Source: Atribacter laminatus
GTDB lineage: Bacteria > Atribacterota > Atribacteria > Atribacterales > Atribacteraceae
Reading direction: 5' to 3'
DNA length: 64,000 nt
NCBI RefSeq assembly: GCF_015775515.1
Contig: NZ_CP065383.1
Location: forward strand, 558,001-622,000
A model generated the notes under the pieces. It saw only the letters and a list, made by a program, of their open reading frames with translations. It searched no databases and was not told the origin of the DNA. Positions 24,519 to 61,265 of the stretch are shown here, in pieces. Positions within the stretch are counted from its first letter, which is position 1. Each line of letters opens with the position of its first letter. A program made the position numbers and the translations under genes.

Positions 24519-26030
24519 TTAATCTTTAAAAATACATTGTTTTAGAGCTGGATATAAGTGTTTATAAACTTCATATTTTTCAAGGTATCGATTGGCGTTA
24601 ATTGGATTTGGTTCATATACATGTTTTACCTGGACAATCGAGTTAACTAATGAAGAAAAATCCTCAATATTTTCCCTGGCTTTCCTTCCTAATAAAGCCG
24701 CCCCCAAGCAAGCAGCTTCGGAAACATTGAGTGTTTCAACTGGCAGGTTATAGACATCGGCTTTTATCTGTAACCAATGTTCATTTCGGGCTCCACCACC
24801 AATAGCACGTAAAGCTCTCACCTCAACACCAGCATTCTTAAGTAACTCAAGATTAAATTTCATTTCCAAACTAATCCCTTCTAAAAGAGCTTTCACCACT
24901 TCTTTGTTGGTAGTTTGGAATTTTAACCCAACAATCATCCCACAAGAATTCGTATCAAAATATGGGGTACCGGTGGTGGTAAAATGAGGGAGGACATAAA
25001 GATGAGTTGGATCTTCTGGCAAACCATCAAGAATGAGGTCATAAACATTTTTTTGAAGGAGTCGTGACTGTTCTTTTTCCAAGCCAGCAAAATTATCTCG
25101 ATACCAGCGGAGAAGCTGCCCGCCAGTAAAATTATAAACTAAAGTGATAAAAAGATCGGAAACCGAATGATGATAGCAACAAAGATTGTTTTCTCTCATC
25201 AAAGGTGTTAAAACTAATTGAGAGATAGCCGGTGCTATGCACTCCACGGTTCCGGTGGCATCCATTGCTAAATAAGGTCGAATAACACCCGCTCCCAAGG
25301 CTCCTGATGGTTGGTCATGGGCACCACAAGCCACTAAGACTGGATGTGGCCATCCCATCTTTTTTCTGAAGGTTTCGGAAACAAGACCTATTGCTTGCCC
25401 TGATGGAAAAGGTTGGGCTAATTGATTCTCGTTAATCCCTGCTATATCTAAAATTTCTGGCGACCATCGAGCTTTTTTTACCTCAAACATCATTGTTCGA
25501 CCCGCTAAAGAATAATTTATAGCTGGTTTTAATCCCAATCGGAATACAATAAAATCTTCGAAGCAAAGAAAATAGCGAGCCTTTGAAAATATATCGGGAG
25601 TATACTTTTTCCACCAAAGAATTTTATTGATCGTCCCAATCCCCGAGAGAGGCATTCCGGTAGTTTTAAAAAATTTCTCTTCTCCCAGCTTTTCCTTCCA
25701 GAATGGAACGAACTCATCTCCTCGCTCGTCAAAGGTTACTATGCTTCTTGCCAGACAACCACCTTTTTCATCAATTGGAATGACCGCTTCGCCTTGTGCA
25801 GATATAGCCAAGCTAACTGGGTAATCACCTTGATAGGAATGAGATACCTCCTGTAAACAATCTTCAACGGAACGAAAAACTTCGTCAGCATCCAATTCGA
25901 TCCATCCCTGATTCGGTTGATATAAGGGGTATTCTCTATAAGCTTGGGCTACTGTATGACCCTCTTCATCAAAAGCGATCACTTTGCAGCCAGTTGTTCC
26001 AACATCGATACCCAAATAACTCAAATCCAC
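24519..26030 (-). CDS. FGGY family carbohydrate kinase
   Basis: 503 residues. YLGIDVGTTGCKVIAFDEEG opens the first FGGY domain; AIGGGARNEHWLQIKADVYNLP is the second-domain signature. The xylulokinase MHG motif is replaced by SAQGEAVIPID, matching the second kinase at 28267, so the substrate is probably not D-xylulose; a tetritol, pentitol or ketose is possible. GTG start behind GGAGAGG. It follows a TIM-barrel isomerase gene by 41 bp, suggesting an isomerase-kinase pair acting on the same sugar. Confidence 0.88.
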   Translation of the reverse strand: MDLSYLGIDVGTTGCKVIAFDEEGHTVAQAYREYPLYQPNQGWIELDADEVFRSVEDCLQEVSHSYQGDYPVSLAISAQGEAVIPIDEKGGCLARSIVTFDERGDEFVPFWKEKLGEEKFFKTTGMPLSGIGTINKILWWKKYTPDIFSKARYFLCFEDFIVFRLGLKPAINYSLAGRTMMFEVKKARWSPEILDIAGINENQLAQPFPSGQAIGLVSETFRKKMGWPHPVLVACGAHDQPSGALGAGVIRPYLAMDATGTVECIAPAISQLVLTPLMRENNLCCYHHSVSDLFITLVYNFTGGQLLRWYRDNFAGLEKEQSRLLQKNVYDLILDGLPEDPTHLYVLPHFTTTGTPYFDTNSCGMIVGLKFQTTNKEVVKALLEGISLEMKFNLELLKNAGVEVRALRAIGGGARNEHWLQIKADVYNLPVETLNVSEAACLGAALLGRKARENIEDFSSLVNSIVQVKHVYEPNPINANRYLEKYEVYKHLYPALKQCIFKD

Positions 26031-27064: not shown

Positions 27065-27905
27065 CTATCCTGAAAATACCGGAACGATTTTAATAGGTAA
27101 CTCATATTAAGTAACTAACCAGAATCTCATCCAGGGCTTTCACCCTCATCCTCACCTTCTCCCATCAAGGGAGAAGGAACTCTGAATTCTTATGTTCTTT
27201 TTTCCCTCGCCCCTTCGTGGGAGAGGGTCAGGGTGAGGGGGTAACTCATTTTCATCCTCATCTGGTGCTGCTAAGAGCAGCATGAGGGTCAATCCTAAAA
27301 ATCCAGGAATGATTTTTTATAGGTAACTCATATTTAGTAACTAACCAGAATCCCATCCAGGGCTTTCACCCTCATCCTCACCTTCTCCCATCAAGGGAGA
27401 AGGAACTCTGACTCGTCATTGCGAGGAACGAAGTGACGTGGCAATCTCATGAGTCCAATCTTTTTTAATTCTCTCCCTTTGGATAAAAGGAAATGATTCG
27501 GGATTCGATTTTTTCCAGTTTTTTTTAAAATCCCCTCTACCCCCTTTGCTAAATGGGGAAATTGGCTCTAGAGCATATATCTTCATCCTCACCTGGTGCT
27601 GTAAAGTAGCATTAAGGTCTATCCTGAAAATAACAACAAATGAATTCTTTAGTCCGTCATCCTGAGACTTTGCTACTCGAAGCCGTGAGGATCTCATCCT
27701 TTTATCTTTTTCTTTAAACAATTTTTACTAAATGAGATTGCCACGTCGCTGCGCTCCTCGCAATGACGGAGCGGGTTGATGAGATTGCCACGTCGCTGCG
27801 CTCCTCGCAATGACGGAGCGGGTTGATGAGATTGCCACGTCGCTGCGCTCCTCGCAATGACGGAGCGGGTTGATGAGATTGCCACGTCGCTGCGCTCCTC
27901 GCATT
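27065..27905. repeat. mosaic repeats with 47-bp tandem palindrome array (region C, left part)
   Basis: Two near-identical stretches with 'ccttctcccatcaaggga' modules lie at about 27065-27185 and 27290-27405, and an inverted core copy at 27415-27448. A hairpin module lies at about 27655-27703. A tandem array of the 36-bp core at a strict 47-bp period follows: 27734-27769, 27781-27816, 27828-27863 and a fourth copy starting at 27875. The fourth copy is split by the 160-bp element that starts at 27906. Open frames here translate to the spurious 'CEERSDVAIS' or 'LRGAQRRGNL' strings and are not genes. Confidence 0.92.
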
Positions 27906-28065
27906 CAGGCTGTGTAACAATCCCTTTCACACACCAAGAAGAGCTTGAAATTAGAGGATACATTCTATTTATCTTCATTTTTTTGGTTATCTATTCCCAA
28001 TATTCCTGTAAAATATTAACATAAGTGGTGGTAAAAATTTTACAGAATAATTATGACACAGCCTG
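27906..28065. mobile_element. 160-bp MITE-like element, copy 1
   Basis: Begins CAGGCTGTGT and ends ACACAGCCTG, so the ends are inverted repeats of about ten to twelve bases. Flanked by ATT (27903-27905) and AAT (28066-28068), consistent with a 3-bp target duplication with one change. It interrupts the fourth tandem palindrome core between 'ctcctcgc' and 'gacggagcgg'. It has no coding frame of note. The same 160-bp length, ends and insertion point occur at 44663-44822. Confidence 0.8.
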
Positions 28066-28240
28066 AATGACGGAGCGGTAAAAATTCAAATCCCACTTTC
28101 ATCCCCCTTTGCTAAAGGGGGAGCTTTTTCCATAGCCCCTCCGTGAGAGGGCAGCTCTTTTCATTCTCAACGGGTGCCACTAAAGTGGCATGAAGATCTA
28201 ATAACTATTTTAAAAAACCTGGTAATATTAATCTCCTTTT
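28066..28240. repeat. mosaic repeats (region C, right part)
   Basis: The remainder of the split core (to about 28075), then a C-rich/G-rich inverted module at about 28090-28125 and a 'ggtgccactaaagtggcatgaa' hairpin at about 28163-28185. The FGGY gene ends at 28267. Confidence 0.75.
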
Positions 28241-28266: not shown

Positions 28267-29799
28267 TCACTGTTCTTCTCGGGTCAGATCGCTGATCATT
28301 CTGTTAACTTTTAACAAATCTTTATATATTAACTGATATATCTGATAACGATTATTATAGTTTTGAATATAGCTATTGTTTGGCTGGATGGAATCCTCAA
28401 AGGAAACCATGGCATCAATTGCCTCTTCAAAACTTTTAAATACTCCTTTGGCAACTCCCGCCAACATAGCAGTTCCAAGAGCAACTGCTTCACCGGTTTT
28501 TGGAATGACCAAAGCTTTCTGAAGAATGTCAGCTTTAATCTGCAACCATGCTCTCGAACGAGAACCACCACCAATCGCTCGCAAGCAGTTGATCGGTAAA
28601 CCGAATCTTTCGTATAAATCTAAATTTATTTTCATCTCATACGTAAGGCTTTCCAAAATCGCTTTGACTACTTCTTCCTTGCTGGTTGCCAAAGTAAGGC
28701 CAATTATTGCCCCTCGTGATTTTTCATCTAGGTAAGGTGTTCCCGTTCCGGAAAAATGCGGAAGAACAAATACTGAGGCAGGCTTATCCGGTATTTCCTT
28801 TAATAATAGATCATATGCGCTCCCACCAATTTGGGCTGCTTTTTCAAGTTCCTCGAAACCAAACTCATCTCGAAACCAACGAAGCACAACCGCACCTGAC
28901 GCTATATACGCCAGGGTAATGTAGGAATCTTTCACAACATGAGGATAACAGCAAAAACTGTTTTCCAACATTTCTCTGCTAAAAAAGGCACTTTCCCCAA
29001 GATTGAGTGCAACACATTCGGAGGTTCCTATTCCATACATCGCTTCACCTGGGTTTTTCACTCCACATCCCAAAACTCCACAAGGCTGGTCATGACCTCC
29101 AGTGGCAATTAAAAGATTTTTTGGAAGGCCGCTTATGCCGGATATTTTTGAACTAATGGTTCCAGCTATGCTTCCAGAGGGAATAGCCCGAGAGAGATTC
29201 TGTGGGTCAACACCTGCCAATTTACAAATTTTTTCCGACCATTCTTTTTTGACTACATCAAAAAGCATAGTTCGAGCTGCCAAAGAATAGTCAATTACTG
29301 GTTGATCTTCCGTCAATCGATAAATAATATAATCCTCAACACAACAAAACTTCCAGGTTTTTTCAAACACGTCTGGGCAATGGTCTTTGAGCCATAATAT
29401 TTTATTAACCGTATACATACCATGTAGAGGCATACCGGTTATTTGAAATATATTATAAGGGTCTTCTCTTTCTAACCAGTAATCAATATAAGTATGAGCT
29501 CGAGTATCGAAATTTGCCAGAGCATTATAAAGTGCCTTACCAGAGCTATCAATTGGAATAAGCGTTTCCCCATGAGAGGTAACGGCTACGACTTCTATTG
29601 GTTCTTTTGACTTTTTCGCAGCTTCGATAAGTGCATCAAGAACGCTTTCCCAAATATGTTCGGGATTAATCTCCAACCAACCCGGTTGCGGTGTTATAAA
29701 AGGATACTCACGGTATGATTGAACAAGCATAGTTCCTTCTTCACGAAAAAGGACAACTTTACAACCACTCGTTCCTACATCCAAACCAGCCAAAACCAA
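28267..29799 (-). CDS. FGGY family carbohydrate kinase (paralogue)
   Basis: 510 residues. The N-terminus MVLAGLDVGTSGCKVVLF and the C-terminal AIGGGSRSRAWLQIKADILQ are FGGY motifs. Like the kinase at 24519 it has a GE motif (VTSHGETLIPID) in place of the xylulokinase MHG, and the two share YSLA.RTM.F and GGHDQP-type blocks, so they are probably paralogues with related but distinct substrates. TTG start behind AGAGGG. It stands alone between two repeat regions. The sugar cannot be read from the sequence. Confidence 0.87.
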   Translation of the reverse strand: MVLAGLDVGTSGCKVVLFREEGTMLVQSYREYPFITPQPGWLEINPEHIWESVLDALIEAAKKSKEPIEVVAVTSHGETLIPIDSSGKALYNALANFDTRAHTYIDYWLEREDPYNIFQITGMPLHGMYTVNKILWLKDHCPDVFEKTWKFCCVEDYIIYRLTEDQPVIDYSLAARTMLFDVVKKEWSEKICKLAGVDPQNLSRAIPSGSIAGTISSKISGISGLPKNLLIATGGHDQPCGVLGCGVKNPGEAMYGIGTSECVALNLGESAFFSREMLENSFCCYPHVVKDSYITLAYIASGAVVLRWFRDEFGFEELEKAAQIGGSAYDLLLKEIPDKPASVFVLPHFSGTGTPYLDEKSRGAIIGLTLATSKEEVVKAILESLTYEMKINLDLYERFGLPINCLRAIGGGSRSRAWLQIKADILQKALVIPKTGEAVALGTAMLAGVAKGVFKSFEEAIDAMVSFEDSIQPNNSYIQNYNNRYQIYQLIYKDLLKVNRMISDLTREEQ

Positions 29800-44409: not shown

Positions 44410-44662
44410 TAATTCTATCCAGAAAATACTGGTATGCTTAAAAAACGGCATCATCCTGAGGCATCGTTTCTCGAAACCGCGAGGATCTTATCTGACGCTG
44501 CAGGCGTCATCCTGAGCGGTGTTTTTCCGCGTGAGGATCTCATCTTTTTTGTTTTATTCTTTATAATTATATTAAAGAATGGGATTCTCACGTCGCAAAA
44601 TTCGCTCCTCAGAATGACGGGGAGGGTGGATGAGATTGCCACGTCACTGCGCTCCTCGCAAT
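44410..44662. repeat. mosaic palindromic repeats (region E, left part)
   Basis: Two hairpin modules ('cctgaggcatcgttt...cgcgaggatcttatc' and 'cctgagcggtgttt...cgcgtgaggatctcatc') lie at about 44450-44545. A diverged core lies at about 44581-44620 and a core beginning at 44632 that is split by the 160-bp element. Confidence 0.85.
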
Positions 44663-44822
44663 CAGACTGTGTCACAATCCCTTTCATACACCAAGAAGAG
44701 CTTGAAAGTGGAGGAAACATTCTATTTATCTTCAATTTTTTGGTTATCTATTCCCAATATTCCTGTAAAATATTAACATAAGTGGTGGTAAAAAATTTAT
44801 AGAATAATTATGACACAGCCTG
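44663..44822. mobile_element. 160-bp MITE-like element, copy 2
   Basis: Begins CAGACTGTGTCA and ends TGACACAGCCTG, an inverted repeat with one mismatch. Exact AAT flanks at 44660-44662 and 44823-44825 give a 3-bp target duplication. It interrupts the core at the same place as copy 1 (between 'ctcctcgc' and 'gacgg'). Internal sequence is nearly the same as copy 1, with no usable gene, so a transposase must be supplied from elsewhere if it moves. Confidence 0.85.
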
Positions 44823-44945
44823 AATGACGGAGCAGGAAAAAATTCAAATCCCCTCCGCCCCCCTCTTCTAAAGGGGGGCGGAGTTCAACTTCTGAGTATA
44901 TATTTTCATTCTTATCTGGCGCTGTTTAACAGTATAAAGATCTAT
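44823..44945. repeat. mosaic palindromic repeats (region E, right part)
   Basis: The rest of the split core, then a C-rich/G-rich inverted module at about 44848-44885 and a 'ggcgctgtttaacagtataaag' hairpin. Confidence 0.75.
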
Positions 44946-58610: not shown

Positions 58611-59471
58611 CTAAACAAAAATTTTCTTCTCTACGCTTTTCAAAAAATCCAAACCCTTTTTCGCAATATCCTCAGGTTCAGCAATTTCTCTCCAGATCGC
58701 AACCTGACGACCAAAATCTTCCTTCATAATATCGGGCGTAAACGATTCAACAACTAACCACCTTTTGTAACCAATTTCTTTTAAACCTTGAAAAACCTCG
58801 TCCCACTCGACGTGACCATTACCAGGAATTCCTCTATTGCTTGCACAACAATGAAAGTGGAAAAGTAAATCACCAGCAGTTTTGATGGCATCATATAAAT
58901 GATTTTCTTCAACATTCATTTGGAAGGTATCTAAATGAATTTTCAATTGAGGATGGTTAATTTCATTTATAAGAGCTTTTGCTTCTTCGGCGGTGTTGAG
59001 AAAATGGGATTCAAAACGGTTGACGGGTTCAAGAGCAAGGAACACCTTATAATCTTTCGCAAATTCTGCAACTTTGAACAAGCTATCCTTGCAAATTTCC
59101 CATTCTTCTCGAGTTCTCCCTTTTTTATTGCTTAAGCCCCAAGGTGCATATACAACTCCCCCGATTACATCACTACCTAGTTTTGCGGCTTCTTCTATAC
59201 ACTTTTTGAGAAAAGTAATTCCGTTTTCCCTAATAGCATTATCATTTGATGTAATATCAGTTTTTTCATCCAGTGACGTAGAACATAAACACTTAATATC
59301 CAATTTCTTTGCTTCTTTGGCAATTTCATTGGATAAATTAGAAGATAAATAATCTTCGCTTAAAGAAATTTCAATTCCTTCGTAACCAAGTTTTTTAACT
59401 TTTTCCAGTACCGATATTCTTTCACGTGTGAATTTTGAAAAAAACAACAAACCAAAAACACCATAGTGCAT
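58611..59471 (-). CDS. sugar isomerase/epimerase of the tagatose-3-epimerase type
   Basis: 286 residues. TIM barrel with EGIEISLSEDYL near residue 30, ALEPVNRFESHFLNT near 143 and LKIHLDTFQMNVEE near 175. It continues with HFHCCASNRGIPGNGHVEWDEVF near 205 and VVESF near 238; the Glu/Asp/His/Glu metal set looks intact. It resembles D-tagatose/D-psicose 3-epimerases. The start at 59471 follows AAAGGA; earlier ATGs at 59495 and 59480 have worse spacing. It lies just upstream of the binding-protein gene and probably acts on the imported sugar. Confidence 0.87.
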   Translation of the reverse strand: MHYGVFGLLFFSKFTRERISVLEKVKKLGYEGIEISLSEDYLSSNLSNEIAKEAKKLDIKCLCSTSLDEKTDITSNDNAIRENGITFLKKCIEEAAKLGSDVIGGVVYAPWGLSNKKGRTREEWEICKDSLFKVAEFAKDYKVFLALEPVNRFESHFLNTAEEAKALINEINHPQLKIHLDTFQMNVEENHLYDAIKTAGDLLFHFHCCASNRGIPGNGHVEWDEVFQGLKEIGYKRWLVVESFTPDIMKEDFGRQVAIWREIAEPEDIAKKGLDFLKSVEKKIFV

Positions 59472-59781
59472 TTTAATCATCCTTTCTTCATTCATAATCA
59501 GTTTTTCTATTTTAAGTTTAAAAATCTCCCTTTTCTATGTCAATGAATTTCGCTTTAATTAAAAAGTATCATTAATTATAAAATTTCTTATTACTGCATC
59601 TTTGACTAAATTATTGAAAGTTTTTATTTTGGAAAATCAACATTAAGTTTACTTTTTAAATATAACGCATTACAATGATCAAATTCTTTTAATTATTATG
59701 TTAATATCGTTTTCCCCATACTGAATGAACAAAACATAAAAAATAAATATAAGTAATTATTTGATGGCAATTTTTATTCCC
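59472..59781. other. AT-rich gap, no recognised feature
   Basis: Very AT-rich sequence upstream of the epimerase gene. I looked for promoter boxes and hairpins and found nothing that I can support. Confidence 0.5.
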
Positions 59782-60879
59782 TTATAATTTTTCTATCTTA
59801 TCCTGCATTTCTTTGGTTCGATTTGGATCAAGCGCCCCAGCAATGATATGGTACTTTACCGAACTTTTCTCAGGAATAATTCTCACGTTACCAGCTGCTT
59901 TTTCATGAGTGTATCCTTCTGGATCACAAGTCCCCGGCAATAAAAACCCATAGGCTTCTCGATCCCGGTTCCGTATAATCCAACGGGTTGCATGGTCAAG
60001 TTGATCCGGTCGGTAGGAAACATAATCTCCTGAACCATTAGGATGAACTTGTAAAAAATGTGTCCATCCCCGATCATCGGTTTTGGGAGATTTAAGATAA
60101 ATAACCAATTCTGGAAAATAAGGATCTTCAGGAAGTATGGTTTGCATGCGTTCAGGATTAGTTTTAATAGTATTCACAAACTGAATATACTCCTTACTCA
60201 TAGGAATATCCTTCGAATGAGCTGGGATACTTTCTCGAAGTTTAATAAATTCTGTATTCCATGGAACCGGTTGTATCATTTTTCCGTAATCGATAGGTCG
60301 AAAATTGATATGGGTCATATACATATGTTCCATTGGATAATCAGAAAGATTTTCGATTTGAATATCAATATCCAATAGGGATGATTGACTGTGAATCTTA
60401 ACTACTGGATAGGCTCGATAGTAGCTTGAGGTAAAGGCATCATTGTATTGGAATTCTCCAGTAATTGCTAAATAAAATCCCTTTTCGTCTTCACCAAAAA
60501 GTAACCGGGGATGGTCAAAATTTGCGTAAGGGAGCTCACCGTGAAGTGGATGGGTGTCTTCTTTTCCTGGATTTCCGGTTCTTAAGGCTCCACAATGGTA
60601 CATAAAACATCCATAGGTATTGGCTATTGATTCAACATTTTTTGGTTCATCAAATTTTGATAGCATTTTAATGCTTCTACCATAAAAAACTGCATCCCAG
60701 ATTTGCTGCCCTTTATAAGGTAAAACAGTTATATATCCCAATTCATTTTCCAATTTTATGGCATGGATTCCACTATCAAAAATGAAAAGGGAGGCTTTTA
60801 AGGCTTCCCTTTTCATTAATTCCATCTCTTTATAGTGAAACATTTCTTTCCTAATAATAACCTCGCCTTGATAAGCCAT
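59782..60879 (-). CDS. DUF4432-like aldose-epimerase-fold protein
   Basis: 365 residues, soluble, beta-rich. Segments such as ELGYITVLPYKGQQIWDAVFYGRSI, FMYHCGALRTGNP, THPLHGELPYANFD and YMTHINFRPIDYGK resemble DUF4432 and other galactose-mutarotase-fold proteins. Several His/Glu/Asp could form an active site. Anomeric or hexose-related epimerase activity is plausible; the substrate is unknown. ATG behind GGAGGTG. It sits between the two transport sets. Confidence 0.78.
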   Translation of the reverse strand: MAYQGEVIIRKEMFHYKEMELMKREALKASLFIFDSGIHAIKLENELGYITVLPYKGQQIWDAVFYGRSIKMLSKFDEPKNVESIANTYGCFMYHCGALRTGNPGKEDTHPLHGELPYANFDHPRLLFGEDEKGFYLAITGEFQYNDAFTSSYYRAYPVVKIHSQSSLLDIDIQIENLSDYPMEHMYMTHINFRPIDYGKMIQPVPWNTEFIKLRESIPAHSKDIPMSKEYIQFVNTIKTNPERMQTILPEDPYFPELVIYLKSPKTDDRGWTHFLQVHPNGSGDYVSYRPDQLDHATRWIIRNRDREAYGFLLPGTCDPEGYTHEKAAGNVRIIPEKSSVKYHIIAGALDPNRTKEMQDKIEKL

Positions 60880-61265
60880 AATTCACCTCCTAAAAAATAC
60901 CGCAATATATAAATTTTTTCATGAAAATGCTTTTTTGAAGAATATTTTTAATTTATAAGTCTTTATTTATAGGATAAACCTTAATAAGGGACATTGCGCA
61001 CAAAAGAAATGATTAAAATTACAGACATAGATTTGCTACAATTAAGTACATAATGGTTGAATAACCTAATTTTACTAATTTTTATAAAAAGACGGATTGA
61101 TGGAATCCTAAAAATTTAAATAATTAAAGAATAAAAACAAGATAACATTATTTTATCTTTATCTACTCAACACTACTTTTAGTTGTAGTTTGCCAACCTC
61201 TACTTTTATTCTTGCATAATAGAGGTTGGCAAACTTAACAGCCACCTTATCTAATTTTTCTGGTT
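60880..61265. other. gap with one terminator hairpin, otherwise featureless
   Basis: Contains the hairpin at 61187-61235. The remaining part, upstream of the DUF4432-like gene, is AT-rich and shows no clear promoter, operator or gene. Confidence 0.5.
61187..61235 (-). terminator. hairpin terminator after second binding-protein gene
   Basis: A perfect 16-base-pair stem AGTTTGCCAACCTCTA/TAGAGGTTGGCAAACT with a 17-base loop, 31 bp after the stop. No long T-tract follows, so a role in mRNA protection is also possible. Confidence 0.75.

Follow-up and report, generated by a model that had tools for sequence, protein, structure and literature searches.

A 160-bp IS1182-type MITE and a full-length IS1182-family element share an insertion site in a CGTC-tagged palindrome of Atribacter laminatus

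Within the window, i.e. the whole 64,000-nucleotide stretch of Atribacter laminatus DNA analyzed here (contig positions 558001-622000), two 160-bp elements interrupt a palindromic repeat at the same point. Does such an element seek out the palindrome, or are palindrome and element copied together as one unit? A preliminary description of this DNA had left both options standing. It had placed the first element inside the fourth unit of a palindrome array and had noted a second one of the same length and insertion point, and both observations were confirmed, the array units having a 47-bp period (Table 1). Copy 1, which is exactly 160 bp long, starts with CAGGCTGTGT and ends with ACACAGCCTG, and is 94% identical to copy 2. 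The copy 1 locus is flanked by two related sugar-kinase-like ORFs (window 24519-26030 and 28267-29799), the second of which has 10-25 matches in each congener. A 98-bp direct repeat, 97% identical and containing a CCTTCTCCC...GGGAGAAGG hairpin, is present at window positions 27088-27185 and 27314-27411.

Table 1. Coordinates of the elements, their flanks and their target palindromes in the window, and of the full-length IS copies in the same genome.
Feature	Position	Strand	Remarks
160-bp MITE copy 1	27906..28065	+	ends CAGGCTGTGTAACAAT / ATTATGACACAGCCTG; orthologous empty site in G005
Copy 1 left 3-bp flank, ATT	27903..27905	+	AAT expected on that strand; centre base differs from right flank
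Copy 1 right 3-bp flank, AAT, part of target duplication	28066..28068	+	
Tandem array of CGTC-tagged palindrome units, 47-bp period	27732..27905	+	fourth unit interrupted by MITE copy 1
Array units, at	27732, 27779, 27826, 27873		
Rest of interrupted fourth palindrome unit, AATGACGGAGCGG	28066..28078	+	
160-bp MITE copy 2	44663..44822	+	orthologous empty site in G003
Copy 2 target-site duplication AAT, left	44660..44662	+	
Copy 2 target-site duplication AAT, right	44823..44825	+	
CGTC-tagged palindrome unit interrupted by copy 2	44629..44662	+	intact orthologue in G003
1751-bp IS copies (same genome)	59401-61151; 1183538-1185288; 1444426-1446176; 1498688-1500438		

The 160-bp element and its full-length partner

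The genome, a single contig of 3,101,225 bp, was found to contain 24 copies of the element (73-100% identity, best E 5e-79). Both ends carry terminal inverted repeats of about 16 bp, CAGRCTGTGTCAYAAT, and the 16-bp end occurs 54 times genome-wide versus 0 times for a reversed-pattern control. Three copies lie within 4.5 kb at 545815-550280 of the contig, shortly upstream of the window, and two others occupy neighbouring palindrome units at 1091497-1091848, one of them having lost an end.

The same ends were recovered on four nearly identical elements of exactly 1751 bp, which differ from the first copy by 10-27 bases and consist of a single ORF between terminal inverted repeats. This ORF encodes a transposase of 490 amino acids, uninterrupted by stops in all four copies, with the Pfam domains DUF772 and DDE_Tnp_1_6 and a score of 381.8 bits against the NCBIfam model NF033551 (IS1182; cut-off 270). 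A decayed fifth IS1182 copy starts at a site like those of the intact elements, CTCCCTGCAAT followed by CAGACTATG. The MITE-like nature suggested in the preliminary description, which had proposed looking for a full-length IS that shares these ends and encodes a transposase, is supported by these elements. Short, present in 24 copies and too small to hold a transposase gene, the 160-bp repeat combines terminal inverted repeats with a 3-bp target-site duplication, empty sites and an autonomous partner with the same ends; on these sequence features, it is a non-autonomous IS1182-type MITE. Of the outcomes named there as speaking against mobility, neither copies at unrelated sites without duplication nor a known RNA family was seen.

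The MITE and the IS have only their terminal 14-19 bp in common and differ in their interiors. An origin of the MITE as an internal deletion derivative of the present IS was rejected, since nothing but the ends is shared. From the ends and the target, it appears very probable that the IS transposase mobilizes the MITE in trans; another, lost IS1182 element could be the real mover, because the MITE interior is not derived from the present IS. In the congener with the most MITE matches (G005, 20 matches) no transposase was detected, though MAG assemblies often miss multicopy IS.

Target site, duplication and empty sites

The same position of the same palindrome was occupied by 26 of the 28 elements, namely the four IS and 22 of the 24 MITEs. 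The occupied target reads CTCCTCGC-AAT-[element]-AAT-GACGG within a dispersed CGTC-tagged palindrome; in the orientation of the palindrome, the site itself is GCTCCTCGC-AAT-GACGG. One of the two remaining MITEs (L021) sits in the loop of such a palindrome, and the other (L023) lies elsewhere, yet also at ATT. Among the 22 on-target MITEs, the left end is lost or decayed in two (L020, L024) and the left flank is rearranged in one (L016). The elements are found in both orientations relative to the target (15 versus 12).

The preliminary description had given ATT/AAT flanks. This is true of copy 1 and is not typical, as copy 1 is the sole exception among 27 two-ended elements; the other 26 have identical direct-repeat flanks (23 AAT/AAT and 3 ATT/ATT). 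Differing 3-bp flanks were also seen in congeners (L063, L066, L067, L070, L073, L076) and at L107 and L114. At these loci and at window 27903-28068 it is mostly the centre base that differs, by A versus T, with the effect that the flanks perfectly extend the terminal inverted repeat (ATT...AAT); in L073 and L107 the flanks are perfectly inverted over 11 bp. Such centre-base changes look as if an imperfect palindrome had been corrected by template switching.

About 253 unoccupied cores TCCTCGCAATGAC were counted in the genome with at most one mismatch, versus 0 for a control pattern, so that about one in ten target sites is filled. Targets of this kind represent less than 0.01% of genome positions, yet hold 26 of the 28 insertions. 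AAT alone cannot explain the site choice, because the window contains 4123 AAT/ATT trinucleotides and 183 CAATG/CATTG. The target resembles CGTC-tagged REPs in being palindromic and dispersed, with CGTC followed by a stem starting in AT (CGTC-ATTGCGAGG...GGCAAT; about 253 tag-end cores). Compared with families 1-4 (8-9 bp stem, 4-5 bp loop) it is longer and imperfect, and a 57-nt stretch folds no better than shuffled sequences. At the window loci that were read, the palindrome is intergenic. A second palindrome family (GTCATCCTGAG...GTGAGGATCTCAT; window 44434-44555) is common in the window, but all 28 elements of this genome lie outside it; in another Atribacterota bin, an element (L096) lies in a palindrome related to this second family.

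Orthologous loci lacking the element were found for both window copies. The genes next to copy 2 recur in congener G003, where the palindrome is intact, GAACTCCTCGCAATGACG. Those next to copy 1 recur in congener G005 together with the composite repeat, whose single unit there, GCTCCGTCATTGCGAGGAGC, is uninterrupted; CTCCGTC-ATT-GCGAGGAG in G005 corresponds to CTCCGTC-ATT-[160]-AAT-GCGAGGAG in the window. The gain thus amounts to 160 bp plus a 3-bp duplication, with nothing lost. Since the four-unit expansion is absent from G005, tandem expansion and insertion were separate events. Five congeners differed strongly in their MITE matches (0, 10, 9, 0 and 20). Among the congener copies listed, those with two ends are flanked by trinucleotides of the AAT/ATT type and mostly lie in the same palindrome; one carries a changed base. 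In congener G002 the element coordinates coincide with those on contigs of Candidatus Atribacteria AS27yjCOA_164, which places the window in the same genus of Atribacterota as that bin.

Same-ended elements in other phyla

GTDB genomes were scanned for exact paired ends, with a length range of 152-182 bp that was set by the search pattern, so that the lengths carry little information. The scan returned 34 loci from Atribacterota, Aminicenantes, Aerophobetes, Omnitrophota, Scalindua, bacterium BMS3Bbin05, Chloroflexi, Saprospiraceae, Deltaproteobacteria and others; a few of them, e.g. L100 in Prevotellaceae, are probably chance matches. Across phyla the interiors are mostly unrelated and not alignable past the ends, and a common descent of these interiors was rejected on that ground. 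The interiors of L093, L101, L103, L104 and L120 contain CGTC-like or other palindromes, as if captured by the ends.

The flanks often form inverted repeats centred on the element, with 11 of 33 at or beyond the 95th percentile of chimeric controls (p = 4e-6, an optimistic value because related copies within a genome are not independent). This stem-complementarity score was picked after the minimum free energy fold of the joined flanks had failed to separate true from chimeric flanks. An outward-facing GTCAT tag was present within 25 bp at 11 of 28 sites outside Atribacterota versus 4.8% of random positions (p = 3e-8, again optimistic, as related copies are not independent). Elements in Aminicenantes (L098), Aerophobetes (L119) and Omnitrophota (L093) lie at the exact site CGC-AAT-GAC, or GTC-ATT-GCG on the other strand. 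In Aminicenantes CSMAG_1216, a MITE (L099) and IS1182 ends (L143, L148) occupy the same position of one repeat; to judge from these positions, this is a second example of a MITE and an IS with a common target. An IS1182-like match was detected in 10 of 18 of these genomes, with only two passing the cut-off, and draft assemblies limit such detection.

Proposed mechanism, rival explanations and known systems

We are confident, from the shared ends and the shared site, that an IS1182-family transposase would move the MITE into the CGTC-tagged palindrome at AAT, a target common to MITE and IS. The DDE transposase made by the 1751-bp element would bind the ~16-bp ends CAGRCTGTGTCAYAAT and carry the gene-less MITE in trans. 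A 3-bp staggered cut at AAT in GCTCCTCGC-AAT-GACGGAGC would lead to duplication of this trinucleotide. The palindrome would be the preferred landing site of both elements and may act as a safe haven, as it is intergenic at the window loci and abundant (~250 free sites), and landing between genes may be of benefit.

The option that core and element form a compound repeat, copied whole by homologous recombination or within a larger mobile unit and sharing its insertion point by descent, would fit the similar composite repeats (AAATTCAAATCCCCCT, CTTTGCTAAAGGGGG) that often extend beyond the palindrome in several copies. The G005 orthologue, however, has these composite flanks without the element, and G003 has the palindrome without it; moreover, both orientations occur, each with a 3-bp duplication, and the 1751-bp IS is found at the same spot with a different interior. 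The empty sites refute joint copying at both window loci, and we regard it as very improbable in general. The other option of the preliminary description, that the element targets the palindrome core, is borne out by the same empty sites, the duplication and the two orientations, which support insertion into a pre-existing palindrome. Even less credible is an immobile structured RNA or regulatory repeat. The single strand does fold more stably than shuffled sequences (z = -4.0), but the terminal repeats make up much of this predicted fold, the alignment holds almost no compensatory changes, each present in a single sequence, and no Rfam family covers the element, the only matches being weak, sub-threshold miRNA-model matches outside it. 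Its presence also varies among congeners, with target duplication.

How the target is chosen is a separate matter, on which the element would stay an IS1182 MITE either way. Recognition by DNA structure, i.e. of any hairpin or cruciform loop and not of the CGTC-palindrome sequence, is a genuine possibility, though not the one we would expect. It draws on IS1272 of Staphylococcus, which belongs to the same family and is reported to replace inverted-repeat targets that are unrelated in sequence, without duplication (PMC5678879). Same-ended elements of other phyla occupy different palindromes, in many cases precisely at the centre of the loop, with the flank complementarity above chimeric controls reported in the previous section, and in the present genome AAT is central in a GCTCC-TCGC-AAT-GAC-GGAGC hairpin wherever the outer flank permits. 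On the other hand, 26 of 28 insertions fall at one position of one palindrome family despite the presence of the second family (7 versus 12 matches in the window), and sites without the GGAGC arm in the outer flank are still used (L012, L019, L119). IS1272 and the present IS have in common the transposase family, 16-bp terminal repeats and inverted-repeat targets (PMC5678879), whereas the present element uses one sequence-defined site. IS1272-like target replacement was rejected here, as the empty-site comparison revealed no loss and a 3-bp duplication.

MITEs of the IS1182 type are already known, as are IS that target REPs and the targeting of inverted repeats by IS1272. In Methanosarcina acetivorans, ISMac2 (IS1182 family) has MITEs of 160 bp (14 copies) and 169 bp (7 copies), which resemble the present MITE in being non-autonomous, IS1182-type and of similar size; they differ in the repeat sizes tabulated (26/4 and 25/0), no palindrome target is described for them, and IS1182 is named in that paper's table only (PMC3852290). 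REP-targeting IS, including IS1397 and ISKpn1 (IS3), IS621 (IS110), ISRm22 (IS4) and others, are reported for five families, IS1182 not being among them; like the present IS, they have a fixed insertion point in dispersed extragenic palindromes, and the paper makes no mention of MITEs (PMC1525189). CGTC-tagged palindromic repeats, whose superfamily the present target resembles by its CGTC tag followed by AT, were described as being without a dedicated transposase, apart from a few fortuitous associations with transposase genes, and Atribacter is not mentioned (PMC3733652). Unlike the cases of that survey, here an IS and a MITE use the tag junction as target. A search of open-licence papers for the end and target sequences returned only chance primer-like matches, and within this literature the very strict site common to MITE and IS and the link with CGTC palindromes are apparently unreported. 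The similar elements in palindromes of several other phyla look new, and the link with CGTC palindromes beyond a single phylum, which has been partly tested, is the most interesting part.

The system offers a natural DDE transposase that is very strict in its choice of site, with 26 of 28 insertions falling on one trinucleotide of a single repeat, and also supplies its minimal substrate, the 160-bp MITE; the pair allows testing whether IS1182 enzymes read the palindrome sequence or the hairpin structure. For CGTC palindromes it also provides a candidate partner enzyme; their lack of a dedicated transposase had been left open (PMC3733652). A broader proposal, which we put forward tentatively and consider rather unlikely, is that a clade of IS1182 transposases and their MITEs may recognize CGTC-tagged palindromes as a class, by the combination of tag and hairpin, both in Atribacterota and in several other bacterial phyla. 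If this is true, the clade would represent the first systematic link between CGTC repeats and a group of enzymes.
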